DNA of 40,326 nt from Acidobacteriota bacterium. GTDB taxonomy: Bacteria > Acidobacteriota > Terriglobia > Terriglobales > Acidobacteriaceae. The translations under genes were made by a program, and so were the position numbers. Positions 8,334 to 36,647 of the stretch are shown piece after piece. Each line of letters opens with the position of its first letter. The stretch's first letter is position 1. The notes beneath the pieces are model-generated. The model was not told the origin of the DNA. It made no database searches and saw only the letters and a list, made by a program, of their open reading frames with translations. The stretch spans positions 1 to 40,326 of the forward strand of contig JAFAUE010000248.1 in NCBI GenBank assembly GCA_019243475.1, given 5' to 3'.

Positions 8334-8369
8334 AAATTCCCTGGTTGAGGGAATTTCTGAGGGAATTTT
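8334..8369. repeat. Inverted repeat AAATTCCCT-ggttg-AGGGAATTT with alternative distal arm AGGGAATTTT
   Basis: Perfect 9-bp stem 8334-8342 / 8348-8356; alternative 10-bp arm at 8360-8369 pairs with 8333-8342. Confidence 0.6.
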
Positions 8370-8544
8370 CGAAGTCGCCGGACAGATTTCTCGCGTTTCT
8401 GCCCAAAATCCGCAGATTCTTGCGGTAGCTGAGGGAATGGCTCAGGGAATTGCGGGAATTTCGGCCAATCGTTTTGAATCCAGACAACTTGCACGCCATA
8501 AATGCTGGAAGTTTTACGGCCGATCTGGGAATTAGCAGGGAATT
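8348..8544. repeat. Cluster of GGGAATT short direct repeats downstream of the kinase gene
   Basis: GGGAATT at 8349, 8361, 8445, 8454, 8527 and 8538, plus GGGAATG at 8433 and an inverted copy (AATTCCC) at about 8335. Confidence 0.6.
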
Positions 8545-12288: not shown

Positions 12289-13818
12289 TTAGTGAGGCTC
12301 CGCAAAAACTTCGGCTGAGCCAAGCGCAAGCAAACACAGCATGTCCATTCGGCCTCCAGCAGCATTCCCCCCAGCAATGAGCACGGAACCATCCGAAAGC
12401 AAAATCGCGGTGTGGGCTGATCTCGGGACTCCCATTGATCCTAGTGCAGTGAAGACGCCGGTTGCGGGATCATAGATTTCGGCACTATCCAAAGTACCGT
12501 CTTGCGCGCTGTTGCCGCCGACAATCAAGACCTTGCCATCCGCGAGCAGCGTTGCTGTATGCTCCTCCCTCGCGACCGTCATGTGGCCGGTGGGATTGAA
12601 GGTTCCTGTGACCGGGTCGTATAACTCGGCAGTTGCAGAAACAACTGTGGGCGTCGATCCGGAACACGGCGAAGATAACGGAGACACTGCACTCAGTCCC
12701 CCCGCGATCAGCACCTTTCCATCGGGGAGCAGAGTAGCGGTGTGCCCGCCGCGCGGGCTACCCATCTTCCCTGTCGGCACAAACTTTCCCGTAACGGGAT
12801 CATAGATCTCAGCGCTCGTAAGTGCCGTGGAGACCGAACCTGGAATAGGCACGCTGGAGAAGCCGCCCACAACAAGAACCTGACCGTTGCCCAGGGCTGT
12901 AGCCGTATGCGCATAACGAGGGGCTCCCATCGTGCCGGCTGATATGAACTTGTTTGCCGCAGGATCGTAAAGCTCAGCGGTCGCCGTAGCGGGATCAAAT
13001 GCCGGGAAACCGAACCCCCCAGAGGCCCCGCCGCCCGCGATGAGTACTCGTCCGTCTTCCAGCGGAGTGGCGGTGTGAGCTACCCGTGGAATGCTCATCT
13101 CCCCAATCGCCGTGAAACTCAAGGCCGCCGGGTCGAACAATTCTGCTGAACTCTGGGCGGGAGGTTGATCCAGCCCTACCCCGAGACCGCCCGCGACCAG
13201 GACTTTCCCGTTTTGCAACAGCGTCGCAGTATGAAAATCGCGTGGTGAGGTCATATTTACAGTAGTGGTAAAACGTTTCGCGACCGGATCGTAGAGTTCG
13301 GCGTCGCGTTGGCCAGCCTGCTCGAAATCTTCGGTGTACCCCTGGCTGCCTCCGACCATCAACACCTGTCCGTTGGCGAGAAGAGTTGCGGTGTGAACCC
13401 CGAGTATTCGGTTCATGTTTCCGACCGGCGCGAATCCTGCCATGGGTTGGCCCACCGTGACGGTTGCGGAAGCGCTCTTGGTTGGATCTGCGGCAGCTGC
13501 CGCAATCAGATGAAAGGTGCCCGGCGCAGCAGGAGCGGTATAAAGACCCAAACTAGTCACCTCGCCGCCTGCCGATCCTTCTTGAATGGACCAGTTAACA
13601 GTGAGATCGCCTTGTTGCCGAATCACGTTAGCTTGGAATTGCTGGGTTCCGCCGGTTGGCAAAAAGGCCATCGATGGAGTTAATGCGACTGAAATAATGG
13701 GATTGGTTGAAAGTTGGGAAGGCGGAGGAATGACAGTCACGCTCGCGCCTCCTCCCCCACATCCAAGAGAACAGACCGCGATTAAAGCGATCGAAACTCG
13801 TAATGACTTCATGCGCAT
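12289..13818 (-). CDS. Kelch-repeat lipoprotein with N-terminal Ig-like domain
   Basis: Lipobox SLGCGGGG; repeats of HTATLLxDGKVLIAGG...AELYDPxTGxF. Confidence 0.85.
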   Translation of the reverse strand: MRMKSLRVSIALIAVCSLGCGGGGASVTVIPPPSQLSTNPIISVALTPSMAFLPTGGTQQFQANVIRQQGDLTVNWSIQEGSAGGEVTSLGLYTAPAAPGTFHLIAAAAADPTKSASATVTVGQPMAGFAPVGNMNRILGVHTATLLANGQVLMVGGSQGYTEDFEQAGQRDAELYDPVAKRFTTTVNMTSPRDFHTATLLQNGKVLVAGGLGVGLDQPPAQSSAELFDPAALSFTAIGEMSIPRVAHTATPLEDGRVLIAGGGASGGFGFPAFDPATATAELYDPAANKFISAGTMGAPRYAHTATALGNGQVLVVGGFSSVPIPGSVSTALTSAEIYDPVTGKFVPTGKMGSPRGGHTATLLPDGKVLIAGGLSAVSPLSSPCSGSTPTVVSATAELYDPVTGTFNPTGHMTVAREEHTATLLADGKVLIVGGNSAQDGTLDSAEIYDPATGVFTALGSMGVPRSAHTAILLSDGSVLIAGGNAAGGRMDMLCLLALGSAEVFAEPH

Positions 13819-13876: not shown

Positions 13877-14413
13877 TCATCGTTGTTTGGAATCGTCGGT
13901 GACTCGCGTAACGGTATGGGATCGTTCTAGTGGCACTACCATGGTGTTCACACTGCTCTGATCCTCCAGCGTGCCTTCCTGTCCGAGCAGTAGCGTGTCC
14001 TTAACACCTGCGCCGACCACCAGGTCGGCCAGTGCTGCCTCGAAGTCGTCGAGTCTGTTTTCACTCAAGCTCGTGTTAACAGGAACGAACCCCTTGAACG
14101 GATCGACTGCGAGCGCAGCTCTGGCGCGACCGCGAATGCGGTTATCTGCCAGTACGCTGTCTGCGACGAAACCTCTCACTTCAATGCCGGCATTGAGAGC
14201 GCCGAAGGTTTTGCCCTTCGGTGGTGACATAGCGGTCTCGTTGTCCAACACGACGGCGTGCTGCATCGGCCACGCTGAGAATTGGCTAAACACTCCGATG
14301 CCGATTGCCTGGAGTTGGGGAGGCGGAGGAATGACGGTTATGTTACGGCCTCCCCCACAGCTCGCCGCAGACATTACGACCAAGGTAGCAACAACAGGAA
14401 GTGATTTCCTCAT
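13877..14413 (-). CDS. Chimeric lipoprotein: kelch-type lipoprotein leader joined to the C-terminal domain of the beta-helix protein
   Basis: Leader MRKSLPVVATLVVMSAASCGGGRNITVIPPPPQL resembles the 12289-13818 leader (CGGGGASVTVIPPPSQL). From AIGIGVFSQFSAWPMQHAVVLDNETAMSPP the protein resembles the 16673-17929 C-terminus (AIGIGVFSQFSAWPMEHAVVLDNDVIMSPP). Confidence 0.7.
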   Translation of the reverse strand: MRKSLPVVATLVVMSAASCGGGRNITVIPPPPQLQAIGIGVFSQFSAWPMQHAVVLDNETAMSPPKGKTFGALNAGIEVRGFVADSVLADNRIRGRARAALAVDPFKGFVPVNTSLSENRLDDFEAALADLVVGAGVKDTLLLGQEGTLEDQSSVNTMVVPLERSHTVTRVTDDSKQR

Positions 14414-14575: not shown

Positions 14576-16534
14576 TCACGTGCCTACGGTTCCGATGAGT
14601 GTCAAAGCTCCGGTTGAGGTGTCGATGCTGTATATCGAGACATCATTCGAGCCGGAATTAGTCACGTAGGCAAAGTTGCTTGAAGGAAGGATAGTTATCG
14701 AGCTCGGAGCCACTCCCGCATTTACCGTTCCAATGGACGTTAAGAGTCCCGTTGTGGCGTCGATGGTGTACATGGAGATGTTGTTGGAACCAGCATTCAC
14801 CGCATAAGCGAACTTGCTGGTGGGATCCACGGCCACGGAAGTAGGACCTGCTCCTGCAGCAATGGTCCCATTCGGCGTCAGGGTTCCGTTCGTGGAGTCG
14901 ATCGTATATGTCGAGAGATCGTTATCGCCGGCATTAGCCGCATACGCGAATTTGCCGGACGGAGCGACCGTCACCGAAGTGGAATTCACTCCTGCTGCGG
15001 CCGTTCCTATGAGCGTCAAGCCGTGTGAATCGATGCTGAAGATTTCGATTGGAGTGGGAGTAAACGTCTGGTACGCGAAGTTTGCCACGTACGCGAACTT
15101 TCCGGATGGATGCACAGCAATCGACGAGGGATACAACCCGATGTCGTAGAAGACCTCACTTGTCGGCGTTAGGATCCCGTTCGTCGCATTTACTGTGTAG
15201 GTTACAACGCTTCCAATATCGTCTTCGCATGCAGTACTCGCCACATAGACAAACCTGCCCAACGGGTCGCTGGCAATTGATTGGCTACAGGTATATGCGA
15301 GAACCGGTGGAGCTATAAGCGTTAAGGTCCCGGTGTTGGGGTCGATCGTGTACATGGACACATTGTTGACGAAAGCCTCGGTGTTATTCGCCACATACAG
15401 GAACTTGCCAGAAGGATGCACGGCCATGCTGACTGGATTCGCCCCTGCCGCTATCCTGCCGTTAAGCGTGAGCGTCCCGATGGCGGTGTTAATCGTGTAC
15501 ATAGAGATATCGTTCGAAACGGAATTCGTCACATACGCAAACTTGCCGGTGGGGTCCACCGCTACTGACTGAGGAGACACTCCGCCCGTCGCAATGGTGA
15601 AGTCCAGCGAATTGGAGCTACCCCCGCCCGGAGAGGGATTGAAGACGCTAACAGTGGCTGTGCCCGTCGCAACAATGTCACTTGCCGGAATCTGCGCGGT
15701 GAGGGTGTCGGCGCCAAGAATCGTGGTTGGCCGGTCGTTGCCATTCCACCGCAAGACCGAATTGGCTGTAAAGCCATAGCCACCTACTCTCAAAGTGAAA
15801 GCTGGCCCGCCAGCGGCCGCGCCGCTTGGATCAAGGGCGACAATGTGTGGGGTCGGATTGGAAGTCTGGACGGCGAACACCGATGCATTCGAGATACCGC
15901 CGCCGGGCGCGCGGTTGATCACCGTGACTTCGAATGTGCCGACATTGGCAATATCCGAAGCTTGAATCGCCGCAGTGAGTTGCGTTGTGCTGATGAAGGT
16001 GGTTACCCGCACATTGCCATTGAAGGTGACCGTCGAGCTGCTGATGAAGTTCGTGCCGTTCACCGTTAAGGTGAATGCCGCCCCGCCGATTATGGCGCTG
16101 ATAGGCGAGACGCTGGTTATGGTTGGCGTGGGATTGATTGGAGCGGGATTGACTATGGTGAAGGGCACAGCATTCGAAGTGCCCCCACCGGGCGCAGGGT
16201 TAGTTACTGTTACGGCTGCAGTACCGGCGGAGGCAAACGCGGCGGCAGGGATGGCGGCAGTCAATTGCGTGGAGCTAACAAAGGCAGTGGTACGCGCCGC
16301 ACCGGCGAAGTTGACTACCGACGCCGAAATGAAATTCGTCCCGTTGACGGTCAGCGCAACATCTGCCTTACTGCCGGCCACGGCACTCGTGGGTGAGATT
16401 ACGGTGATCGTGGGGAGGGGATTACCGCTACGATCAGTCGAAGTCGTGCCGCCTCCGCCGCAAGCGGTAAGAAGCACAAGATTCACGACTACTAAAATCA
16501 CAAGTGCACTCGTTAGTGGCGTCCTGCTCTTCAT
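14576..16534 (-). CDS. Lipoprotein with three IPT/TIG-like repeats and a C-terminal YVTN/lactonase-type beta-propeller
   Basis: Lipobox LLTACGGGG; repeats VNGTNFISxSxVxFxGxxRxTTFxSxTQLTAAI; propeller repeats VAVDPTGKFAYVTNSxSNDISMYTI. Confidence 0.85.
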   Translation of the reverse strand: MKSRTPLTSALVILVVVNLVLLTACGGGGTTSTDRSGNPLPTITVISPTSAVAGSKADVALTVNGTNFISASVVNFAGAARTTAFVSSTQLTAAIPAAAFASAGTAAVTVTNPAPGGGTSNAVPFTIVNPAPINPTPTITSVSPISAIIGGAAFTLTVNGTNFISSSTVTFNGNVRVTTFISTTQLTAAIQASDIANVGTFEVTVINRAPGGGISNASVFAVQTSNPTPHIVALDPSGAAAGGPAFTLRVGGYGFTANSVLRWNGNDRPTTILGADTLTAQIPASDIVATGTATVSVFNPSPGGGSSNSLDFTIATGGVSPQSVAVDPTGKFAYVTNSVSNDISMYTINTAIGTLTLNGRIAAGANPVSMAVHPSGKFLYVANNTEAFVNNVSMYTIDPNTGTLTLIAPPVLAYTCSQSIASDPLGRFVYVASTACEDDIGSVVTYTVNATNGILTPTSEVFYDIGLYPSSIAVHPSGKFAYVANFAYQTFTPTPIEIFSIDSHGLTLIGTAAAGVNSTSVTVAPSGKFAYAANAGDNDLSTYTIDSTNGTLTPNGTIAAGAGPTSVAVDPTSKFAYAVNAGSNNISMYTIDATTGLLTSIGTVNAGVAPSSITILPSSNFAYVTNSGSNDVSIYSIDTSTGALTLIGTVGT

Positions 16535-16672: not shown

Positions 16673-17929
16673 TTACCTCGTTCCTGACGCAATCTTATGG
16701 TTCTCAGCTATTCTTTGCTGTCCGAGAACCAGAGTGTCAGTGACGCCTTGCCCGAAAGACACCGGCACTCCTTCGAAGTCATCGACCTCATTCAGGAGCA
16801 ACGCGTTATTAGTAGGAGTTCCACCTTTGAAAACATCTATGGCGATCGCGGCTCGAGCGCGACCTCGAATCCTGTTGTTCGCAATGACGTTGTCACGCGT
16901 GAAGCCCCTCACGTCGATCCCGGCGCTGAAATTGCCGAATACCGTCCCGGCAGGCGGCGACATGATCACATCGTTGTCCAACACGACGGCGTGCTCCATC
17001 GGCCACGCTGAGAATTGGCTGAACACTCCGATGCCGATTGCCTCCGGGTCAGGCCATTCGCATTCGATGCTGTTGTGGGTCACCACATAGGAACCGGTGT
17101 TGACGACACGAATCACTTCAGGGCGCGGGGCTTTTTGCGAGGAAATCGGACCGGTGTGAATCACATTGCCTTCAATGTGAGCTCGTCCGCCGATCCGGCG
17201 GAAATTGATTGCGGGTTCCGTCGTGTTGCTGATCCGATTCCCGGAAATGAAAAGATCGGCTTCGCGGTTCGGGGATTCCCCAACGCTGAATACCGTAATT
17301 CCCAGTGTGTTATCCGCAACCGATCCTCCGCTGACATCGATATCGTTGTCAGCGATCAACACCCTACCCGAGATGTTTTCGGGGTGTCCGGGTTGACCCG
17401 GAGTCGGTACGGCGCCGCTGGTATCGATGTCGATCGCGATACTGCCGCCAAGCGCGCTGCTCGGCACGATCCCATCAATCTTGCAAGAGGTGATTGTGAG
17501 ACCCGCGGCCGAATAGACGAGAATTGCCTCTGCTATCGGGTGTTCGAAGCGCAAGGCCCGAATCGAGACGTCGGCTCCGGGAGCCTCAACGTAAAACGGA
17601 ATCGTGCCTCCTTCTATCTCGGTGAGATCATCTCTGTCTCTTCCTACTCCCGATATGGCAACCGACTTCGATATTCGAATGGTTGCAGCCGGGTATTGCA
17701 TGCCCGCGAGAGCAGTCAATACGGTAGGCGGTTGGTCAAAAGAGAAGCGCCCTCTCAACGTGACTGCACCGCCCTGGTCCACCGCAGCTTGAACCGCTGG
17801 GATGTCGATGTCTGCGTGGCCGGTTCCAACCACCTCGGTGGAGTGTGCCATTGCGCTGCCCGCAAGCAGAAGCACCCCGAGAAAAAGGCTAAGAACACGA
17901 ACATCTACTGCAAGCAATGCTCGATTCAT
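16673..17929 (-). CDS. Secreted right-handed parallel beta-helix (pectate-lyase-like) protein
   Basis: Signal peptide VLSLFLGVLLLAGSAMA; repetitive VLIADNDIDVSGG, LFISGNRISNTTEPAINF, HIEGNVIHTG pattern; RBS GGAGAACCAATATG. Confidence 0.75.
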   Translation of the reverse strand: MNRALLAVDVRVLSLFLGVLLLAGSAMAHSTEVVGTGHADIDIPAVQAAVDQGGAVTLRGRFSFDQPPTVLTALAGMQYPAATIRISKSVAISGVGRDRDDLTEIEGGTIPFYVEAPGADVSIRALRFEHPIAEAILVYSAAGLTITSCKIDGIVPSSALGGSIAIDIDTSGAVPTPGQPGHPENISGRVLIADNDIDVSGGSVADNTLGITVFSVGESPNREADLFISGNRISNTTEPAINFRRIGGRAHIEGNVIHTGPISSQKAPRPEVIRVVNTGSYVVTHNSIECEWPDPEAIGIGVFSQFSAWPMEHAVVLDNDVIMSPPAGTVFGNFSAGIDVRGFTRDNVIANNRIRGRARAAIAIDVFKGGTPTNNALLLNEVDDFEGVPVSFGQGVTDTLVLGQQRIAENHKIASGTR

Positions 17930-18295
17930 ATTGGTTCTCCTAGGCATTAAATCGATGAGTGTTCGCCGTCTCGATACGGCGATTTTGTTGGGGCTCGAAG
18001 TCCTATTCGCGGTCCCGCTCGCGGCCATCATCATTCTGTCCTCCTAATTTGTTTGGAACGGAAACCAGCTTCGCTCCCACCGCCGGCCTTGCCCAACGCA
18101 AGGAGCGGTGGTGAACGCCGGCCACCATCGCTCACAGGGGCAGCGACACTCAATGTCTCAAGCGTGACATTCGTCTATTTCTCTTGTGGTTGTGCAAGTT
18201 GCAGCAAACGGGACACTTACAATCGGCCGGGGATTTGGAGCAGCAATCTTGCTTAAAGGTAACCGTGATAAACTCGCGGCATTTCAGGTACCTGA

Positions 18296-20209
18296 GTGGC
18301 TATTTCTGCACCGTCAGCGCGCATTCGCTTCGATGTTTTTGAAGCCGACTTGCGCTCCGGGGAATTGCGGAAGCATGGGCTGAAGATCAAGCTCCATCAG
18401 CAGCCCTTCCAGGTTCTCACCGCCCTGCTTGAGCACCCCGGCGAGGTCGTCACCCGCGAGGAACTGCAAGCCCGGCTATGGCCGTCCGATACCTTTGTGG
18501 ACTTCGAAGTGGGCCTGAACTCCGCGGTGAAAAAGCTGCGCGAGGCTTTGCGCGATTCCGCCGAAACGCCGCGCTTTATCGAGACGCTTCCCCGCCGCGG
18601 CTATCGCTTTATTGCGGCCATTAATAACGCCCTGCCCGTTGAGGCGCCAGCGACGGTTACGCCTCAAGAATTAGAAGATCCAGGCAATGGTGCAGCGGAC
18701 GAGAGGACGCGCAAAACCAGTCTGCCATTCCGGCGTCGTTGGCTGATAGCCGGTTTTGGTGTGGCAGTTCTTGCTGCGGGCTGCTGGTTTTTTGGCAAAC
18801 GACTACTACAACGGCAGAGCACTTCGAGCACTGCTACTCCAGCTCAAATTCGCGCCATCGCGGTTCTACCGCTCGAAAATCTCACCGGCGATCCCGGACA
18901 GGACTACTTCGCCGATGGAATGACGGACGCTCTGATTACTGACCTGGCGCAGATTAGTTCCTTGAAAGTGATCTCGCGCACTTCGACGATGCGCTACAAA
19001 CGCACACAGAAAACTCTTCCCGAAATCGGAAACGAGCTGAACGTCGACGGCATCGTGGAAGGCGCAGTGATTCGATCCGGCGAACGCGTGCGTGTTGATG
19101 CTCAATTGATCGAAGCAAAGAGCGATCGCCATATCTGGGCGAGCACGTACGAACGAAACCTTGGCGATGTAATCTCATTACAAAACGAGGTGGCCCGCGC
19201 TGTTGTTAACCAGATCCAGGCCAGGCTCACGCCTCAGGAGCAAGCACATCTCCTACGCAGCGAAACAGTCGATCCACAGACGTATGAGCTTTACCTGAGA
19301 GGCCGCCACTTCTGGAACAAACGTGACGAAGAATCAATCCGCAAGAGTATCGATAGCTTCCAACATGCCATTCAACGAAGCCCTAACTATGCCGCCGCAT
19401 ATGCCGGCGTCGCGGAAGCCTATGTTGTGCGTGACGACGTACCGCCCCAGGAAAGTTTTTCTGCCGCGAAGGCGGCGGCCCATCGAGCGCTCGAAATGGA
19501 CGAGAGTCTTGCCGCAGCCCACAACGCATTAGCAATGAGCCTTTTCGCGTACGACTGGGATTGGACCGGTGCGGAAAAGGAATTCCAGCGTGCAATTGCA
19601 CTGAACCCGAACTATGCCCAGGCGCACCAATGGTACGCACAGTATCTAAGGACCATGGGACGCCAAGACGCCGCGGTCGAGGAGCTGAAACATGCCGAGG
19701 AGCTAGACCCAATTTCCCCCGTTATCGCAGGCGGTAGCGGCAGATACGGCAAACAATATGACGTGATGATCGAGCACGCCAAAGAGAAGCTCGAACTCGA
19801 TCCCAATTCATTCGCTACATACAGGATGTTGGGAACTGCTTACGCCCTGAAAGGGATGTATCGGGAATCCATCGCGGCATATCAGAAGGCACGCGATCTC
19901 TCCGCCGGAGCTCCTCACAGCTTGGCCGACTTGGGCTATACCTATGCGATATGCGGCAAACGGGCTGAAGCGTTGAATGTAATTGGAGAGCTGGAGGAGC
20001 TCTCAAAACACAGATATGTCTCACCCTATTACTTCGCGCTAATCTATACGGGATTGGGTGAAAAAGATACGGCGTTCACGTGGCTGCAAAAGGCCGTGGG
20101 CGAGCGTTCGATATCACTTGCCAGCTTCAGAACGGGAGAGGAGTTGGCAAACTTGCGCTCTGACGCCCGCTATCGTGAACTATTGAACCGCATTGGCCTC
20201 CCGCAGTAA
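18296..20209 (+). CDS. Winged-helix (OmpR/CadC-type) DNA-binding protein with TM, FlgO/TolB_N-like and TPR regions
   Basis: LRSGELRKHGLKIKLHQQPFQVLTALLEHPGEVVTREELQARLW...RRGYRFIA; TM segment; IRAIAVLPLENLTGDPGQDYFADGMTDALITDLAQI; TPR-like repeats. GTG start. Confidence 0.87.
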   Translation: MAISAPSARIRFDVFEADLRSGELRKHGLKIKLHQQPFQVLTALLEHPGEVVTREELQARLWPSDTFVDFEVGLNSAVKKLREALRDSAETPRFIETLPRRGYRFIAAINNALPVEAPATVTPQELEDPGNGAADERTRKTSLPFRRRWLIAGFGVAVLAAGCWFFGKRLLQRQSTSSTATPAQIRAIAVLPLENLTGDPGQDYFADGMTDALITDLAQISSLKVISRTSTMRYKRTQKTLPEIGNELNVDGIVEGAVIRSGERVRVDAQLIEAKSDRHIWASTYERNLGDVISLQNEVARAVVNQIQARLTPQEQAHLLRSETVDPQTYELYLRGRHFWNKRDEESIRKSIDSFQHAIQRSPNYAAAYAGVAEAYVVRDDVPPQESFSAAKAAAHRALEMDESLAAAHNALAMSLFAYDWDWTGAEKEFQRAIALNPNYAQAHQWYAQYLRTMGRQDAAVEELKHAEELDPISPVIAGGSGRYGKQYDVMIEHAKEKLELDPNSFATYRMLGTAYALKGMYRESIAAYQKARDLSAGAPHSLADLGYTYAICGKRAEALNVIGELEELSKHRYVSPYYFALIYTGLGEKDTAFTWLQKAVGERSISLASFRTGEELANLRSDARYRELLNRIGLPQ

Positions 20210-20236
20210 CAGATCGCTTCGATTCAGCCTCATCGG

Positions 20237-23200
20237 TTAAAAAATAAACTTCAACTGCATCGCCATGGAGCGAATTCCGCCATCGGTAAGCCTCGAATTC
20301 AGGAACTGTCCCGGCGGTGAATTCACGACATCACGGCTGGGCGCTTGCACAAATTGCCGATGATTGAAAACGTTAAAGGCGTCCCAGCGAAACTCCAGCT
20401 TCTTGCCTTCCCGAACTGGAAAACGCTTGGCCAGAGCCACATCCCAGTTATTGGTGCCGCCTGCGAGCAATGTGTTCCGTCCGACCGTCGGGCTACCGGC
20501 AAGGCCGGAGCCTTCGACAAAATGAACATCGGCCGGAGTGACGCAGGTTCCCGTATCGGGATTTCTATAGCCGGTGGAGCAGGATCCCGGACCAAGGGCA
20601 GGGGTTATCAGCGCGCGTGTGTCCACCGGAGCGGCCGGATTTCCAATGTCAGGGCGATCGTTGGCAAAGCCGTCATGGTTGCGGTCAAAGCCGTTCTCCA
20701 CCGTATACGGCGTGCCCGACTGAAAAATAGTAATTCCCGAAACCGACCAATTGCCCAGTAGAAGCTGCCGCGCGCCGCGTCCTGGATCCGGCAGATCCCA
20801 AATATACGCAACCGTAAAGCGGTGACTGCGATTGAAGTCGCTGGGTCCTCGATCAAGATTCAAACCTCCGAGGCTTGCGGGAATGGAGGGCAGGTTTAGA
20901 TTTTGCGAGTTGGTATTGACCAGCAGCGACTCGCTTGCATTGTCGATGGCGCGCGACCAGGTATAGGAACCATTGATATGCAGACCTTTACCGAGCCGCC
21001 GTTCCACTTCCAGCTGCAAGGCATGATAAACCGAGTTTCCATTGCTTGAGCGAATGACTCGTGGACCAAAATCCGGATGTAATCGATTTCCATCCAATTG
21101 CCGCGGGTTCACATCGTCGCGAACAAAGAGATGATGGCTTTCTGCACCGACGTAGGCCAGATCCAGCACAAGCCCTTTTGTCAGCGTACGCTGCAGGCCC
21201 AATGTCCAGCGCTCGGTGTAAGGATTGCGAATGTTCTTATCCAATACCGCAAGCTGCCCGTCTCCAAGTCTGGGCGACGGAGCCGACTGGGGAAATTGCG
21301 AAGACCAGTTACTGGTCCCGCGTCCAGCGGAGGAGCTTACTTCATTGATCTGGACTGTATTGGGACTGTCTCCCATTATGAAGTTAAGTAATTGCGTGAA
21401 GAACGTGTCATAGCTGACCTGATAGCCGGCATGCCAAACCGTCATCCCCGAGCCTAAAATGCTGCCGAGAATTCCCGATGTGAACGATGGGGACCAGGCG
21501 AGTCCCAAAACAGGACCAAGGTTCTTTCTGTAGGAATTTACTTTGTTGGGAACGAGAAATTGACTTGCATCAAAACCCGCAAAGGCGGGAAAGCGGAGAG
21601 AATTCGCGGGCTGCCCGAAGTTCTCATAGCGCAATCCGAGGTTGAAGGTCAGCGACGGCCGCGCTTTCCACGTGTCCTCAAAGAAGTAGGACTGCCGGAA
21701 AGAGTCGGGATAGAAGACTGGATTGCCGAAATTTCGGCGGATGGTAGCAGACGGTCCGCTGAAGTCATCGAGGAAATTGGCGAACGCCGAATAGCCAGGA
21801 GAAGCGGTGTACCCAATTTGCCCACGTCCGGCGAAACCGGCTCCCAGTTGTTTGCCTAATTGCCAGAGAAACTCAACACCGTAGCGGAATGTATGAGCGC
21901 CTGCCAACTTCGATTGCGTTTCCTGCAGCAGCCAATTGTTTACATGCTCGAACTGGGGAGAGCCTCCGCCGATTCCGGGGGCAGCGAACGGAGCAGGAAG
22001 CTGTATTGCGGGGATGACACGAGCTGACGGCACGGCGTTAGCCGAAATCGGCGAATCTGCCGCTTCGCGCGCATAAGACAATCGAAGTTCATTGGTAAAC
22101 GTGCTTCCAACTGTGTAGGTGTCGCTGACCAGAAAGTTGTGGTCTCCGTTGCTGGCGTCGGCAAAGTACTGAGGAAAGGAAGGCGGAGAACCTTGCAGTG
22201 GGGATTCCATCTCGGAATCAATCAGGTAGCGGAGCGACATCTGATGCGATGGTGACCAGGAATGATCGAGACGCAAAAGACCTTCAGTGTCGTTGCGGGT
22301 TGATGGATAAGGCCATCTTGCGTTCGCAAAAACCACAGAACCGCGATCGTTGCCGCTGGCAGGATCAACCCCAAGCGTCACTGCGATTGGATTGGAGGAG
22401 CCACGAAGATCACCGAGCGAGTTCACGTACAAAGCGAGACGCGAATTGGAGGGGAATAGAGATTGTAGAGTTATGGCTGCAGAGTTCGTCGGGACGACAT
22501 AACTGAACTGGCCGGGCGAACGAAACCGGTCTTGCTGGAACGCGGCAAAGAAAAATGTCTTGTTCTTCGTGATGGGGCCGCTGACGGTAAAGCCATAGAT
22601 GTTCTCTCGGAAATCAGGAGAAGTGCTGCCGCTAGAGGTATTAAGGCTGGGCATTGAATTGAACGCTTGCGAAGTAAATCGCCATAACAGGGTTCCGTGC
22701 AGCTGATTGGTTCCCGATTTGGTAATGACGTTAACAATGCCACCACCAGCCCGACCAAACTCGGCGCCGAAGTTGCTGGTTTGAACGGAGACTTCCTGCA
22801 CGGCGTCGGCGATGTTGAAGGGCTGCGCTGTTCCAGTAAATGACAGATCGTTATTATCCGTTCCGTCGAGAAGGTAATTGTTTCCCCTGGGGCGCTGGCC
22901 GTTGATGGCGAACTGCGTGGTTTCACCTCCGTTTCCATAGACAAAGGTTCCGGATGGAGCGACCGCGCCTGGAAGCATTCCGGTGAGTGAGATTGGGTTC
23001 AAGACATCGAGCGGAAGGCGGCTTACGTCTTCGGCTTGAAAGCTGCCGCCGCGCAGCGCCGAGTCTTTCAGCAGCAGCTCTTCCACCGCGGCGTTTACCT
23101 GCACAACCAATTCGCTGCCTCCAAGCTGCAAGATACTGTCGATCGTTGTGGTGCGGTTGCTCTCGACAATCACCCCTTTGTTCAGAAAAGATGCAAATCC

Positions 23201-23437
23201 TGGCTTACTGATCCGCAGCTCAAAGACGCCAAGATCCACCGCATCGAAGCGATAGATTCCTGCCGCATTGGTGCTCGTCGACCGAACGATGCCAGTTTCG
23301 TGTTGCGTCAGGCGCACGTATGCATCTGCGACGATGGCGCCGGAGGCATCCGTTACGGTGCCAGACACAGTCCCGCGGCTTGTCTGCGCCAGCGCAGGCG
23401 TGACTAAAACAAGGATCGCAAATGCTCGGAACAACAC
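20237..23437 (-). CDS. TonB-dependent-receptor-like outer membrane protein with N-terminal carboxypeptidase regulatory-like domain (Oar-like)
   Basis: GTVSGTVTDASGAIVADAYVRL; plug-like FNIADAVQEVSVQTSNFGAEFGRAGGGIVNVITKSGTNQLHG; terminal MQLKFIF. Confidence 0.9.
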   Translation of the reverse strand: MLFRAFAILVLVTPALAQTSRGTVSGTVTDASGAIVADAYVRLTQHETGIVRSTSTNAAGIYRFDAVDLGVFELRISKPGFASFLNKGVIVESNRTTTIDSILQLGGSELVVQVNAAVEELLLKDSALRGGSFQAEDVSRLPLDVLNPISLTGMLPGAVAPSGTFVYGNGGETTQFAINGQRPRGNNYLLDGTDNNDLSFTGTAQPFNIADAVQEVSVQTSNFGAEFGRAGGGIVNVITKSGTNQLHGTLLWRFTSQAFNSMPSLNTSSGSTSPDFRENIYGFTVSGPITKNKTFFFAAFQQDRFRSPGQFSYVVPTNSAAITLQSLFPSNSRLALYVNSLGDLRGSSNPIAVTLGVDPASGNDRGSVVFANARWPYPSTRNDTEGLLRLDHSWSPSHQMSLRYLIDSEMESPLQGSPPSFPQYFADASNGDHNFLVSDTYTVGSTFTNELRLSYAREAADSPISANAVPSARVIPAIQLPAPFAAPGIGGGSPQFEHVNNWLLQETQSKLAGAHTFRYGVEFLWQLGKQLGAGFAGRGQIGYTASPGYSAFANFLDDFSGPSATIRRNFGNPVFYPDSFRQSYFFEDTWKARPSLTFNLGLRYENFGQPANSLRFPAFAGFDASQFLVPNKVNSYRKNLGPVLGLAWSPSFTSGILGSILGSGMTVWHAGYQVSYDTFFTQLLNFIMGDSPNTVQINEVSSSAGRGTSNWSSQFPQSAPSPRLGDGQLAVLDKNIRNPYTERWTLGLQRTLTKGLVLDLAYVGAESHHLFVRDDVNPRQLDGNRLHPDFGPRVIRSSNGNSVYHALQLEVERRLGKGLHINGSYTWSRAIDNASESLLVNTNSQNLNLPSIPASLGGLNLDRGPSDFNRSHRFTVAYIWDLPDPGRGARQLLLGNWSVSGITIFQSGTPYTVENGFDRNHDGFANDRPDIGNPAAPVDTRALITPALGPGSCSTGYRNPDTGTCVTPADVHFVEGSGLAGSPTVGRNTLLAGGTNNWDVALAKRFPVREGKKLEFRWDAFNVFNHRQFVQAPSRDVVNSPPGQFLNSRLTDGGIRSMAMQLKFIF

Positions 23438-23585
23438 GGCGAAACCAGGGTTCCTCCGGCGTTGTGCTCATGCAACGCCAAACATGGTGCCGGTATTGCC
23501 TTGACGCGCCAGCAATTCTGGTGTGTTACCTAACCTGTGTCAATCGCTAGGTCGTAATCACGAATAATCGACTGCGCCACGCGCC

Positions 23586-23675
23586 TGATTCTGCGCGATG
23601 CGTGTTCAGTGGAATCAAGTAAATTTTCAAGATCCTGATTCTTTCGCCACCCTGATCTCGAGTTCTCCGAAATTG
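23586..23675 (-). pseudogene. Duplicated 3' end of the NADP-dependent oxidoreductase gene (gene remnant)
   Basis: Gap-free 90-bp match to 35320-35409, 85/90 identical by eye. Minus strand encodes NFGELEIRVAKESGS-stop, versus NFGKLEIRVAKESGS-stop in the intact gene. Confidence 0.75.
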
Positions 23676-25111: not shown

Positions 25112-25327
25112 GTTTCCCTCCCACTAGAACTGCCTGGGGGCGAAATATCGACTCTTCACAAGTAGCAGCACCATGGTCAGCATCTGACGCTTGTCTGAAA
25201 TGATTCTGACGGTGCAACTCACTCGCGCGGAGGGTTTTAGCTCACATCCAGGATGAAGAAACTGTGCGTTTTTGCGGCTCCGGTTTGCACTCCGGTGCTA
25301 GACTCTCGCCATTCGTGGAGAGATGAG

Positions 25328-27226
25328 GTGGAAGTTTCTACGCAGGCTCGCAGGCTCCGTTTCGCAGCATTTGAGGTCGACCTGCGCTCTGGGGAGCTGC
25401 GCAAATTCGGATTGAGGATCAAGCTCCAAGACCAGCCTTTTCAAGTTTTAGCACTGCTGCTGGAGCGCCCCGGAGAAGTGGTTAGCCGCGAAGAGTTGCG
25501 GCAGAAACTCTGGGCAGCGGATACCTTTGTCGATTTCGATGTAGGTCTAAATAGCGCAGTTAAAAGACTTCGCGACGCACTAGGCGACACCGCGGAAGAG
25601 CCGCGGTTCATTGAGACGCTGCCGCGACGGGGTTATCGCTTTGTTGCATCGGTCGAGGAAGAGGTCTCAACTTTTCCTGGTAGCAAGTCCTCTTCCGACA
25701 TGCCCGTGCAAATGCAGCGACCGGCGACCGCGGAAGGGGAGCCTGCGGTTCTTCCGCCCGGACCGCCAGTCGTCTTTCGCCGCTCCTCCAGCGTGCGCTG
25801 GGTTGTGGTTGCCACAGCCTTCGTAATTTTGGCTTTGGCTGTATTTGAAACGCTGCAGTACCGGGTCTTTGATAAGCTGCGCACGCATCCTTACACTATC
25901 GCAGTACTTCCATTTAGGAATCTCAGTCCTGAACCAGACCGTGACTACTTCAGCGATGGGCTTACCAGCGAAATCATCCGGAACCTTTCCGCGATCGATG
26001 GATTAGAAGTCCGCTCACAGACATCTTCCTTCGCATTCAAGGACAAGTCGCCCAAGGTCCGTGACGTGGGCGCACAGCTTGCAGTGAAACTTGTACTCGA
26101 AGGATCGGTTCGACGCCTGGGTGACAAGCTGCGCATCAGCACACAACTGGTCCGCGTGTCTGACGATGTACCAATCTGGTCCGGCAACTTCGATCGCGAA
26201 TTGAAGGACGTGTTTGCGATCCAAGACGAGATCTCCCGCTCGATCGTCAACCAGTTGCGTCTCAAGCTGGGTTCCGGACAGAGACGCTACAACATGGACG
26301 TTGAGACCTACGATCTCTACTTACAAGCCGATACGCTGGCAACATTGCATAGCGATCAGTTGGCAAAAAGTATCGATCTGTTCGAGAGCGCCATCGCCCG
26401 TGATCCCGAATTCGCGCCTGCTTACGCAGGACTAGCCATCGCCTATGCCGACATCTCAATCAATCCGCGTGTGTTCTCCGCTGACGCGGCCTACCCGAAG
26501 ATGCGAGCTGCAGCGGAAAAAGCTCTTCAACTCGACCCGTTGCTGCCCGAGGCGTATGACGCCATGGGGCTCGTCTATGCCCGCGATCAAAAATGGAAAC
26601 AGGCGGAAGCAGCGTTTCGTCGATCCTTGCAACTGAACCCCGGAGTGTCGCGCACACACGCTGATTTTGGAGTTTGGGTTCTCTTTCCTCAAGGGCGGAT
26701 GGACGAAGCAGTGCAGCAGTTACACATCGCGCTCCGTTTCGATCCGTTGTCCATGTCGGTGCGCAATGGTTTGACCTGGGTGCTGCTCAGCGCTCGCAAA
26801 TATGACGAGGTGCTCAAAAGTTGCGCCGGCGTTCCGTGGGATCCCAATAATATGCAGATTAGGCATATGTATCAGGTCTGCGGACGTGCATTGGTGCAGA
26901 TGGGTAAGCTGCGCGACGGAATTGTGATTTTGGAGCGGGACGAAGCCAATAGCCCCGGTTTTCTCGGCTACGCCTACGCCAAGGTCGGGCGGCGAAGCGA
27001 GGCGGAGCGGCTTGCAACAAAATATAGCGCTCGGATCTGGCAGGAAGCGTTGATTTATGCAGGTCTCGGCGACAAAGAACGTGCGCTCGAGCTGCTGCGG
27101 CAAATGGCTGACCAGCACCAACCAATGCTGGGTCCGTACCTCACATATCCAGAATTCGATTCTCTGCGTGGTGATCCCAGATTTAACCAGCTACGCGAGC
27201 AACTGATGCAGCCCCTGAACCGATAG
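25328..27226 (+). CDS. Winged-helix (OmpR/CadC-type) DNA-binding protein with TM, FlgO/TolB_N-like and TPR regions
   Basis: FEVDLRSGELRKFGLRIKLQDQPFQVLALLLERPGEVVSREELRQKLW...RRGYRFVA; YTIAVLPFRNLSPEPDRDYFSDGLTSEIIRNLSAI. GTG 25328 with upstream GGAGAG preferred; the open frame extends to ATG 25253. Confidence 0.85.
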   Translation: MEVSTQARRLRFAAFEVDLRSGELRKFGLRIKLQDQPFQVLALLLERPGEVVSREELRQKLWAADTFVDFDVGLNSAVKRLRDALGDTAEEPRFIETLPRRGYRFVASVEEEVSTFPGSKSSSDMPVQMQRPATAEGEPAVLPPGPPVVFRRSSSVRWVVVATAFVILALAVFETLQYRVFDKLRTHPYTIAVLPFRNLSPEPDRDYFSDGLTSEIIRNLSAIDGLEVRSQTSSFAFKDKSPKVRDVGAQLAVKLVLEGSVRRLGDKLRISTQLVRVSDDVPIWSGNFDRELKDVFAIQDEISRSIVNQLRLKLGSGQRRYNMDVETYDLYLQADTLATLHSDQLAKSIDLFESAIARDPEFAPAYAGLAIAYADISINPRVFSADAAYPKMRAAAEKALQLDPLLPEAYDAMGLVYARDQKWKQAEAAFRRSLQLNPGVSRTHADFGVWVLFPQGRMDEAVQQLHIALRFDPLSMSVRNGLTWVLLSARKYDEVLKSCAGVPWDPNNMQIRHMYQVCGRALVQMGKLRDGIVILERDEANSPGFLGYAYAKVGRRSEAERLATKYSARIWQEALIYAGLGDKERALELLRQMADQHQPMLGPYLTYPEFDSLRGDPRFNQLREQLMQPLNR

Positions 27227-27241
27227 TCCACCGGGACCGTT

Positions 27242-30200
27242 ATGTCGGTATCACTGACATATTTTATTGGCGAGATTTTCCAGCCTTTCGGCAGCGTTCC
27301 GTTTCGGGACAAAGTGCGATTATTCCGGAGAAAGCTGTCCTCCTTCTTCTTCGTCCTTCCGATGTTCTTGGGCGCACTTTCCGCCGCGCTAGCACAATTA
27401 CCCGCAGCAGGCTCGATCGAGGGCAGCGTAACTGATCCAACCGGAGCGGTCATAGTTGGAGCGTCAGTAGTGGCCCGCAGCGTAACTGCTGGCGCCGCCT
27501 TCAAGACCACGACCGACAATGATGGACTCTTTCGCGTTCTAGTGCTCGAAGTCGGCACTTATGAGTTGAGAATCGAGCACGATGGCTTCACGCCGCTGAT
27601 TGACAAAGAGGTGGTTGTCACAGTGGGCGCCGGAGTCAGCATTGCATTGAAGATGACGGTAGCAGGAGGCGCGGAATCGATCTCTGTCACGTCGTCGCCG
27701 TTAATAGAGGACACGCGTACTCAGCTCAGTACGACGATCGAGAATCAATTCATTTCAAAGCTACCCGTGAACGGACGTGACTTCTCCAAATTTGTTCTGC
27801 TCGCTCCCGGCATCACTCGCGATGCTCGCGGCGGCCTCAGTGTGGGCGGACAGCGCGTCATGAACTCCCTCGTGGTGGATGGCACGAATAATGACAACAC
27901 ATTCTTCGGGGTCCATCTCGGCGGCACCGGTTTCAGCGCCGGCGCAAATGCCACGTTCCACATTAGCCAGGAAGCAGTGCAGGAATTTCAAGTGAACACA
28001 AACGCTTATTCGGCCGAACTTGGTCGCGCCGGAGGCGCAGTGATCAATGCGGTTACGAAGTCCGGCGGCAACGACCTGCACGGTACCGCGTTTTGGTTTT
28101 ACCGCGATCGATCGCTCAACGCCAACGACCCAGTTAACAAGCTGAATGACTTGCCGAAAGACCCCTTTCATTTCAATCAATTCGGCGGAGTGGTTGGCGG
28201 ACCCGTGCGGAAAAACCGTCTCTTCTTTCTGCTGAATTATGAAGGGCTTCGCAGCAACAGCCCTAACGCTGTTGTGCTCAATCTGCCGCTTAGGTTTCAG
28301 TTCTCTCCGAATCAAACCGTAGCCGCTTTTCAGAAGCTCGCAATCAATTACCTCGGTGCGCGTGCGGCCCCTTGGACAGAGCCCTTCACCATCGACGACT
28401 CTCTGGCAAAGCTCGACTGGCAGATCAATCCCTCTCATCACTTCGACTTGCGATGGAATCACGAAAGCCTATCCGAAGACTTTGTTACGGGCCAGCAGAA
28501 TTCCTTCGAACACACCACGCCGGACGTCGATCACGACGATGTGATCAGCGCTTCATTAACTTCCGTTCTCTCACCCTCGCTTGTGAACACGGCACGTTTC
28601 GCCTTCGTCCACGAAGCGTCCCCATTTTTGGCGAATGGCCATCGGCCGGAGGCGAATGTCTTTGAGGCCGGCCAACTGGTTCTAAGCATCGGTACCGGAC
28701 CCAATGTGCCAGAGGACGCGGAGATTCATCGCACGCAGTGGGTAGATACCGTTGCGCTCGCACACGGCCATCACGCGTTGAAGTTTGGAGAGGATGTAAT
28801 GCTGGATCGCATAACTTTCCGCCACTCTGAAACTTTTGCCGGGACTTACCGGTTCAACAGTCTTGAGAGTTTTGGGCGGAGTCTGGCCGGAGCTCCTGTC
28901 CCTATACAAGGAGACTCATATCAGCAGTCATTCGCAGGCGATGGCTCGAATGAGTCGGTAACGCACCCGGACATTCTGTTGCTCGCCGGTTTCGCGCAGG
29001 ACGAGTGGCACCCCCGACCGCGTCTCACCATGAATCTTGGCCTGCGTTATGACCTGCAAGTCACGCCAAATCCGCCAGTACGCAATCCCGCCGCGCTGGC
29101 TGCAGGTCTCGATACAAGTACGTTGCCAACGGATGAAGACAATATTGCGCCGCGCGTGGGCTTCGCCTGGATGCCCCTGCGCAGCCAGCGTTTCGTTCTT
29201 CGAGGAGGCTACGGAATTTTTTATGCCATTACGCCAGCGGAAATGACGGCCCGGGCGTTCTTTCAAAACGGCGTCAGCGTGCAAACACGCGCGCTTTCAG
29301 CCGCGACACCACTGGGTGCAGCGCTCATACCTGCGTATCCGAACACGCTCTGCGGTCCACCTCCCTCGTCCGGCGCGATTCCAGGCTGTCTTCCTCCAGT
29401 GGCCAGCGCGAGCAATCAAATTCTGGAACTGTTTGCGCGGAGCTTCGAGCAGCCATATGTGCAGCAGGGCAGCTTTGGCTGGGAAGCGCAACTCAGCACC
29501 AATTCCGCTATTGAAGCAAGCTACCTATTTTCGAAAGGAACTCACCTGCCACACGTGCGCGATATCAATTTGGGACTGCCATCCGCAACCCTCCCAATCG
29601 GCATCGCCGGCACGCCTACTGTGCTGAGTTACCAGCGTTTCTCCCTGCCCCGTCCGATTTCTACCTTCAATCGCGTTCTCCAATTCACCAGTAGCGGCAA
29701 TTCCATTTACCACGGCTTGGTTGTGCAGGCAACCAAGCGCTTTTCGAGCAACTACTCTTTCCTTGCCTCATACACCCTGAGCAAAGTGATCGACGATAAT
29801 CCCAATGTATTCGCCATACGACCGAACCCAAGTAATGCTATGTTCCTGTCGGATCCCACCAATCCTCGCGCGGATCGCGGGCCTGGCGCGAACGATCAGA
29901 GACATCGTCTGGTGGTCAGCGGAATTTGGGAGCTCAATCATGCAAAACATCTCTCCGGTGCAAGCAGAGCTGTGCTGGAAGGCTGGCAAGTAAGCGCGAT
30001 TCTAACCGCGGAAACCGGCCAGCCATATTCCGGGCTGGTGGGATTCGACCTGAATAATGATGGGAACTTCGCTACCGATCGCGTGCCCGGCTTAGGACGA
30101 GACACTTTCTATTTGCCAGCTTCGATCTCGCTCGATCCACGCTTGACGCGCACTGTGCGCCTCCGCGATCGGCTTCAACTGCAAATGATGTTTGAAGCCT

Positions 30201-30403
30201 TTAATGCCTTTAATCACAGCAACATCACCCGAGTTCGGACCACGGAATTTGCTGTGGTGCAATCGCCGGCAAGCTGCGGCATCGCCGGTAGCCCATGTCT
30301 GGTGCGCCAGAATACGCAGACAGCCGGCCTGGACGCTTTTGGCACACCGACCGCAAGCTCCGGAGCGCGCATCCTGCAGTTCGGCGCGAAGTTAATCTTC
30401 TGA
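27242..30403 (+). CDS. TonB-dependent-receptor-like outer membrane protein with carboxypeptidase regulatory-like domain (Oar-like)
   Basis: GSIEGSVTDPTGAVIVGASVVA; EFQVNTNAYSAELGRAGGAVINAVTKSGGNDLHGTAFWFYRD; terminal LQFGAKLIF. Begins 15 nt after the upstream regulator. Confidence 0.9.
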   Translation: MSVSLTYFIGEIFQPFGSVPFRDKVRLFRRKLSSFFFVLPMFLGALSAALAQLPAAGSIEGSVTDPTGAVIVGASVVARSVTAGAAFKTTTDNDGLFRVLVLEVGTYELRIEHDGFTPLIDKEVVVTVGAGVSIALKMTVAGGAESISVTSSPLIEDTRTQLSTTIENQFISKLPVNGRDFSKFVLLAPGITRDARGGLSVGGQRVMNSLVVDGTNNDNTFFGVHLGGTGFSAGANATFHISQEAVQEFQVNTNAYSAELGRAGGAVINAVTKSGGNDLHGTAFWFYRDRSLNANDPVNKLNDLPKDPFHFNQFGGVVGGPVRKNRLFFLLNYEGLRSNSPNAVVLNLPLRFQFSPNQTVAAFQKLAINYLGARAAPWTEPFTIDDSLAKLDWQINPSHHFDLRWNHESLSEDFVTGQQNSFEHTTPDVDHDDVISASLTSVLSPSLVNTARFAFVHEASPFLANGHRPEANVFEAGQLVLSIGTGPNVPEDAEIHRTQWVDTVALAHGHHALKFGEDVMLDRITFRHSETFAGTYRFNSLESFGRSLAGAPVPIQGDSYQQSFAGDGSNESVTHPDILLLAGFAQDEWHPRPRLTMNLGLRYDLQVTPNPPVRNPAALAAGLDTSTLPTDEDNIAPRVGFAWMPLRSQRFVLRGGYGIFYAITPAEMTARAFFQNGVSVQTRALSAATPLGAALIPAYPNTLCGPPPSSGAIPGCLPPVASASNQILELFARSFEQPYVQQGSFGWEAQLSTNSAIEASYLFSKGTHLPHVRDINLGLPSATLPIGIAGTPTVLSYQRFSLPRPISTFNRVLQFTSSGNSIYHGLVVQATKRFSSNYSFLASYTLSKVIDDNPNVFAIRPNPSNAMFLSDPTNPRADRGPGANDQRHRLVVSGIWELNHAKHLSGASRAVLEGWQVSAILTAETGQPYSGLVGFDLNNDGNFATDRVPGLGRDTFYLPASISLDPRLTRTVRLRDRLQLQMMFEAFNAFNHSNITRVRTTEFAVVQSPASCGIAGSPCLVRQNTQTAGLDAFGTPTASSGARILQFGAKLIF

Positions 30404-34928: not shown

Positions 34929-35360
34929 AGGGCGTCGAAGCTCAATGCCTATTGTGCAAGGCGAATTTTGATCGAGCCTCGGAACTTGGTCTTCGCGACT
35001 GGCGAGGGGGAAGGTCAGTTAGCAAGGCAACTTGCCGTTTGCCTAGTTAAAGAAGGGTGGAACACCATTGGATGGCGCTTGAATGTCAAGCAGTATTCTG
35101 GCGAGCCCAGATTTCTGTGTTCGGGTCTTTGAACCCTTACACCGGCGCGTGATGGATCGCCAATGCACTCACTGAACAGGATTGCTACCTTAGGAGCGAC
35201 AGGAGCGCCCGAACTACACATCGGCAGCTGCGCTGTCACCAGTGCGGCATTCCTGAAACTCTGGTCTGTAGTTCAGTCTCCTTGCTCGTGTTCCAGCAAT
35301 CGTTATCGAGAGTGCGCGCTGATTCTGCGGGATGCGTGTTCCGTGGAATCAAGTAAATGT

Positions 35361-36380
35361 TCAAGATCCTGATTCTTTCGCCACCCTGATTTCGAGTTTT
35401 CCGAAATTGTCTCCCGTGAACAGCATCAGCAGCGTCTCAGGAAACTTCTCTAGCCCATCCACGATGTGCTCACGCGACTTCAACCGACCCGCTCTGATCC
35501 ATCCCGCGATCTCTCGCATCCCTTCCGGATAACGCGGGAGATAATCCAGAATGATCATGCCTTTCATGGTGGCCCGGTTCACCAGCAGCGAAAGATAGTT
35601 ACTGGGCCCCTTCAAGGGGCCGTTGTTGTTGTACTGGGAGATCGCGCCGCAAATGACAATGCGCGCTCCGAGATTGATCTGCTCAAGGACGGCGTCGAGA
35701 ATGTCGCCGCCAACGTTGTCGAAGTAAACGTCGATGCCCCGTGGACAGCTTTTCCGCAGAGCCTGACCAACGGCCTCTTTCTTGTAATCAATGGCCGCGT
35801 CGAATCCAAGCTCGTCTGTGAGATAGCGGCATTTCTCCTCGCCGCCGGCAATTCCCACAACGCGGCACTCCTTAATTTTTGCAATCTGCCCCACTACCGA
35901 ACCTACCGCTCCGGCTGCCGCCGAAACCACTACGGTGTCATCCGCTTTCACTTGGCCCGTTTCCAGCAAGCCGAAATATGCGGTCATGCCCGGCATACCT
36001 AGCGCGCTGAGATACACGGGCAGAGGCGCCAGTGAGGGATCGATTTTGAAGAATCCGCCGCCATCGGAAAGCACATATTCCTGTGCCCCCGGCATTCCGG
36101 AGACGTAATCCCCAACGGCAAATTTTGGATTTTTCGACGCGATCACCTGGCCCAGTCCGAGCGCGCGCATCACATCGCCTACCGGCACCGGCGGAATGTA
36201 CGATTTCCGATCATTCATCCAGCCGCGCATGGCCGGGTCGAGCGAAAGATACAGAACCTTGATCAGCACCTCGCCCTCGCGCGGCTCCCGGACCGGCTCT
36301 TCGACGTAAGACCAATCGCTGGCTTTGGGCATGCCAACCGGACGGGCTGCGAGCCGAACCTGATGGTTCTTTATGTTCAT
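35361..36380 (-). CDS. NADP-dependent oxidoreductase, MDR superfamily (leukotriene B4 dehydrogenase/CurA-like)
   Basis: VSAAAGAVGSVVGQIAKIKECRVVGIAGG...YFDNVGGDILDAVLEQINLGARIVICGAISQYN; RBS GGAGGAGACGG before ATG 36380. Confidence 0.9.
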   Translation of the reverse strand: MNIKNHQVRLAARPVGMPKASDWSYVEEPVREPREGEVLIKVLYLSLDPAMRGWMNDRKSYIPPVPVGDVMRALGLGQVIASKNPKFAVGDYVSGMPGAQEYVLSDGGGFFKIDPSLAPLPVYLSALGMPGMTAYFGLLETGQVKADDTVVVSAAAGAVGSVVGQIAKIKECRVVGIAGGEEKCRYLTDELGFDAAIDYKKEAVGQALRKSCPRGIDVYFDNVGGDILDAVLEQINLGARIVICGAISQYNNNGPLKGPSNYLSLLVNRATMKGMIILDYLPRYPEGMREIAGWIRAGRLKSREHIVDGLEKFPETLLMLFTGDNFGKLEIRVAKESGS

Positions 36381-36647
36381 CCGTCTCCTCCTACTTTGAG
36401 TGAGTTTATTCTTGCGTCCGCCGGCATGGAACGCGCTCCGCGCCATGGCTTTGCCTGACTGGATTAGGCGCGAATCATAGCCCCCAAACCGGAGACATGA
36501 AAGGGGTGAAGCCATCGGCTTTTATGGACGCTACGCCAGTACTACAACACTCGCTGGGGAGAAACGGCCACCAGTGGCTTGGATTACAAACGGAGGTAAA
36601 GCTGCGCCAGTAGCAGACGGTCTGTTCCGGGAGTAAAAGAAACAACC

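Follow-up and report, generated by a model that had tools for sequence, protein, structure and literature searches.

Gene content of the locus

The window, i.e. the whole 40,326-nucleotide stretch that was analysed, is contig C368 of the draft genome of a soil acidobacterium (512 contigs, 88% complete). Among named relatives, the nearest that has a matching locus is Acidobacteria gp1 MAG AA112 (QIBC01000259.1, hereafter locus G003:C389). A minus-strand series of exported-protein genes, flanked by an ADOP permease and a winged-helix/TPR regulator, includes a kelch lipoprotein of 509 residues (12289..13818), a beta-propeller lipoprotein (14576-16534) and a beta-helix protein of 453 residues (16673..18034), all on the minus strand. 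Within the same series, with the kelch gene beginning 58 bp downstream of it, lies an open reading frame (13877..14413, minus strand) described here as the mosaic gene. Its ATG at 14413 has a GGAGG motif 5 bases upstream, a normal distance, and 178 codons follow to the stop at 13877; no stop or frameshift was seen within the frame, which is thus intact as originally proposed.

The first 35 codons (14309..14413, minus strand) encode a lipoprotein leader, MRKSLPVVATLVVMSAASCGGGRNITVIPPPPQLQ, comprising a charged N-terminus, a hydrophobic stretch and the lipobox ATLVVMSAASC, whose cysteine falls at position 19, within the range of 15-35. This lipobox fits the PROSITE PS51257 pattern, and the product is predicted to be a signal peptidase II substrate and hence lipidated. 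A search of the genome with the entire mosaic protein returned exactly two matches, the beta-helix protein and the kelch leader. When the 35-residue leader is queried alone, it matches the kelch leader (13711-13809) with 53% identity over codons 3-34 (E 4.6e-5), bearing out the proposed resemblance, at a significance that may be inflated since the match is short and partly composed of Gly/Pro runs. Within this genome nothing but the kelch leader matches it convincingly, and across six genomes of the genus nothing else matched below E 0.03 (next best, E 0.036).

Beyond the leader, the mosaic protein matches the beta-helix protein with 61% identity over query residues 32-152 (E 3.5e-43), such that codons 36 to ~152 correspond to the last ~117 residues of the neighbor. 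The original prediction had assigned everything after the switch to the end of this protein; this holds except for the last ~26 residues, SSVNTMVVPLERSHTVTRVTDDSKQR (13877..13957 with the stop, minus strand), which match neither the beta-helix protein nor the kelch lipoprotein. The join of the two parts was placed at 14308-14310, in agreement with the predicted switch near 14310. The gene is therefore a fusion of two parts with different nearest relatives, meeting at one join within a single open frame, and GFVADSVLADNR is an example of a peptide unique to its product. The beta-helix protein scores 28.1 bits with PF13229 (Beta_helix), above the cut-off of 25.9; the mosaic protein misses the gathering score of this family, and scores no other Pfam (no match at E <= 1) or NCBIfam family.

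The structural model of the beta-helix protein (mean pLDDT 55, with higher values over residues 150-430) features repeated three-strand coils, the shared part included, with a helix at residues 78-86 preceding the first of them. Its structural neighbors are weak, namely beta-helix polysaccharide lyases and tailspikes, none below E 0.001. A sequence search of the PDB gave no match, and the structural model obtained for the mosaic protein (pLDDT 28) carries no usable information. The join corresponds to residue 332 of the beta-helix protein, which in the model lies between coils, just before a predicted strand (333-338) that opens a coil, and the mosaic protein would accordingly hold approximately three final coils and no N-terminal part. 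Judged from this model, the shared segment is a piece of beta-solenoid rather than an independent domain. The proposal of domain shuffling, in which a lipid anchor gained a C-terminal domain, is upheld as to chimeric origin but goes too far, since the segment appears to be about the three last coils, not a separate domain. Right-handed beta-helix proteins of PF13229 are among the closest known systems, as the C-terminal part of the mosaic protein shares ancestry with the end of a protein scoring in that family; unlike them, the mosaic protein lacks the first ~330 residues, bears a lipoprotein leader and has no family score.

The patch at the join and the diverged remainder

The resemblance to the beta-helix gene is uneven. 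A patch of 73 nucleotides at the join (14238..14310, minus strand) is identical at 71 positions to 16971-17043 (minus strand) in the beta-helix gene, whereas the rest of the beta-helix-like part (13958..14237, minus strand) shares only ~58% of its nucleotides and 55% of its amino acids with the neighbor. Counted in codons, the first 24 past the join agree at 69/72 nucleotides and the next 90 aligned codons at 156/270. This mosaic pattern rules out a simple cut-and-paste of recent date from the beta-helix gene as it now stands, since the 97% identity is confined to 73 nucleotides. Protein constraint alone is likewise an insufficient cause of the high identity, because synonymous sites agree too: at identical residues (Met and Trp excluded), 19 of 20 third positions are the same in the patch versus 18 of 39 beyond it (Fisher p 1.7e-4; p 0.0015 in a change-point permutation test). 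The patch is therefore a short high-identity tract, synonymous sites included, within otherwise diverged paralogs, i.e. the signature of a gene-conversion mosaic.

The ortholog of the beta-helix gene in a congener (L004/L032) served as an outside reference for the patch. Within the patch, 69/72 positions are shared by the mosaic and beta-helix genes, and 59/72 by the beta-helix gene and the congener. Over the nine codons that follow, at which point the congener contig stops and leaves most of the diverged part without an outgroup, the corresponding values are 12/27 and 20/27. Only the mosaic comparison falls while that with the congener holds, so the change lies in the mosaic gene. Moreover, only within the patch does the mosaic gene stand closer to its neighbor than the congener does, which further opposes constraint as the sole explanation. 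At all three differences within the patch the congener carries the base of the beta-helix gene, indicating that it is the mosaic gene that holds the derived bases. This is consistent with the beta-helix gene having been the source of the copy and the mosaic gene its recipient. Constraint may explain part of the high identity, as the patch region is the best-conserved stretch between the beta-helix gene and the congener (third positions 18/24, compared with ~0.2-0.5 in most other windows). The end of the congener contig (L032, at 4203 of G003:C389) falls ~33 codons past the start of a conserved AIGIGVF segment, near the place of the patch.

In the diverged remainder, codon positions 1 and 2 are identical to the beta-helix gene at 90/132 sites and position 3 at 26/66. 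The dN/dS comparison that had been suggested yielded a dN of 0.38, with dS saturated. These values show long constraint, and the remainder therefore descends from a coding paralog. Taken from the alignments, these data imply that the patch is probably a recent copy, and the remainder an old partial paralog.

Distribution and origin of the mosaic gene

The same fusion was sought in other genomes, as had been proposed, and its architecture was found in none of 150 relatives, 398 family genomes or 396 phylum genomes (samples overlap), nor in 399 class genomes queried with the full beta-helix protein (again overlapping the other samples). A fusion ortholog is absent from five congeners; the beta-helix gene was found in only one congener, and contig scans for orthologs returned only that congener's beta-helix contig. 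The congener G001 has a kelch homolog (L030:7698-9440) and lacks a mosaic gene alongside. In G059, G073 and G176, hits to the N-terminal beta-helix region were rejected as they stop short of the C-terminal part. The hits found in G025, G324 and G439 are chance matches, as they overlap unrelated genes; those in the last two (L050, L051) are weak profile hits with stops in their frames, overlapping unrelated conserved genes. The claim of chimeric origin is thereby sustained: the nearest relatives of the two halves differ, both lie within 3.5 kb, and the architecture occurs in no other genome searched.

We consider it probable that the mosaic gene arose by the joining of local duplicates together with short-patch ectopic copying, a history read from sequence comparison. 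An old beta-helix paralog, partial or once full-length, would have come to sit behind a kelch-related lipoprotein leader. At or after this fusion, the mosaic gene would have received a copy of ~73 bp of the beta-helix gene, 2.7 kb away, extending inwards exactly from the join, probably by short-patch ectopic recombination or template switching; we infer both the direction and the mechanism of this copying. Such a gene would encode a small lipoprotein with approximately three beta-solenoid coils and no N-terminal part. Since the patch starts exactly at the join, fusion and patch may share one replication-based template-switch event. Synthesis would then have left the leader, copied ~73 bp of the beta-helix gene at a distance of 2.7 kb and switched back to the diverged paralog, whose first ~330 codons would thereby have been lost. 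If so, the age of the patch is that of the chimeric gene itself. We regard this single-event version as rather doubtful, and a subsequent conversion, limited by where homology stops, agrees equally well with the data.

Whether formed in one step or two, the mosaic gene is more likely young or marginal than established. It is possible, though somewhat unlikely, that it is a decaying remnant without a role, in which a deletion cost a full-length paralog its first ~330 codons and brought a leader into frame by chance, the frame staying open simply because little time has passed since. Truncated solenoids without their N-terminal part are unlikely to fold well, which is consistent with such decay, as are the unmatched C-terminal tail and the confinement of the gene to one genome among those searched; the intact frame, ribosome-binding site and lipobox argue against it. 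The same intact signals, along with the in-frame diverged part and its dN, would be expected of an old, established small lipoprotein, in which an ancient fusion became functional under purifying selection and the patch is a later, unrelated conversion ending where homology ends. We think this unlikely: the constraint could predate the fusion, having acted on a full-length paralog, the protein is a fragment without the N-terminal part of the beta-helix, and no fusion ortholog appeared in the five congeners or elsewhere among the genomes searched.

A further alternative concerns the descent of the leader. Across the VIPPP(P/S)QL stretch, 22 of 23 DNA bases are identical between the mosaic and kelch leaders. 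Their signal-peptide parts align poorly at the DNA level, and this, with the shortness of the protein match and its Gly and Pro runs, would be consistent with a generic Gly-rich acidobacterial leader having no descent link to the kelch gene, only the beta-helix part being shared with a neighbor. The near-identity of that stretch, and the lack of any other close leader in the six genus genomes, make this improbable. A hairpin in the leader was considered as a hot spot for the switch, but folding was no better than that of shuffled sequences. A metagenome assembly artefact joining reads from two loci is very improbable despite the fragmented draft genome, as the longest exact word shared in the patch (25 bp) is on the short side for the final k-mer of an assembly, the two parental genes are each complete on this one contig, and nowhere else in the genome does the remainder have a match good enough to mark it as a misplaced fragment.

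Chimeric genes and conversion mosaics of neighboring paralogs are a known kind in bacteria; our literature search found no specific published case matching this one. The mosaic gene resembles them in drawing its leader and C-terminal part from different neighbors within an open frame, and in its short high-identity tract within diverged paralogs. It differs in that the tract lies exactly at the fusion point, with both parents in place within 4 kb. The gene is thus real and ordinary in kind, a chimeric gene with a conversion tract, yet unusually legible. Bacterial chimeric genes are usually observed long after the event, but here the parents in place, the intact frame and the patch at the join make the order of events readable and its age estimable from strains. 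The gene represents no new kind of system and implies no function; it is mainly a clear example of how chimeras arise.

Other repeats in the window

A dispersed ~128-bp element with repeated GGGAATT words occupies 8334-8461 (up to 8544). It has no match in Rfam, and recurs at >20 sites on other contigs of the same genome (~70-82% identity), but barely in congeners. A direct repeat of ~95 bp, likewise without an Rfam match, occurs at 23581-23675, upstream of a receptor gene (20237-23437), and at 35314-35409, overlapping the 3' end of an open reading frame at 35361-36515; the copies are 94% identical and lie 11.7 kb apart. Moreover, a module comprising a winged-helix/TPR regulator adjoining a CarboxypepD_reg and OMP_b-brl_4 receptor is present twice (18296-23437 and 25253-30403), and the two regulators share 71% DNA identity over ~280 bp.
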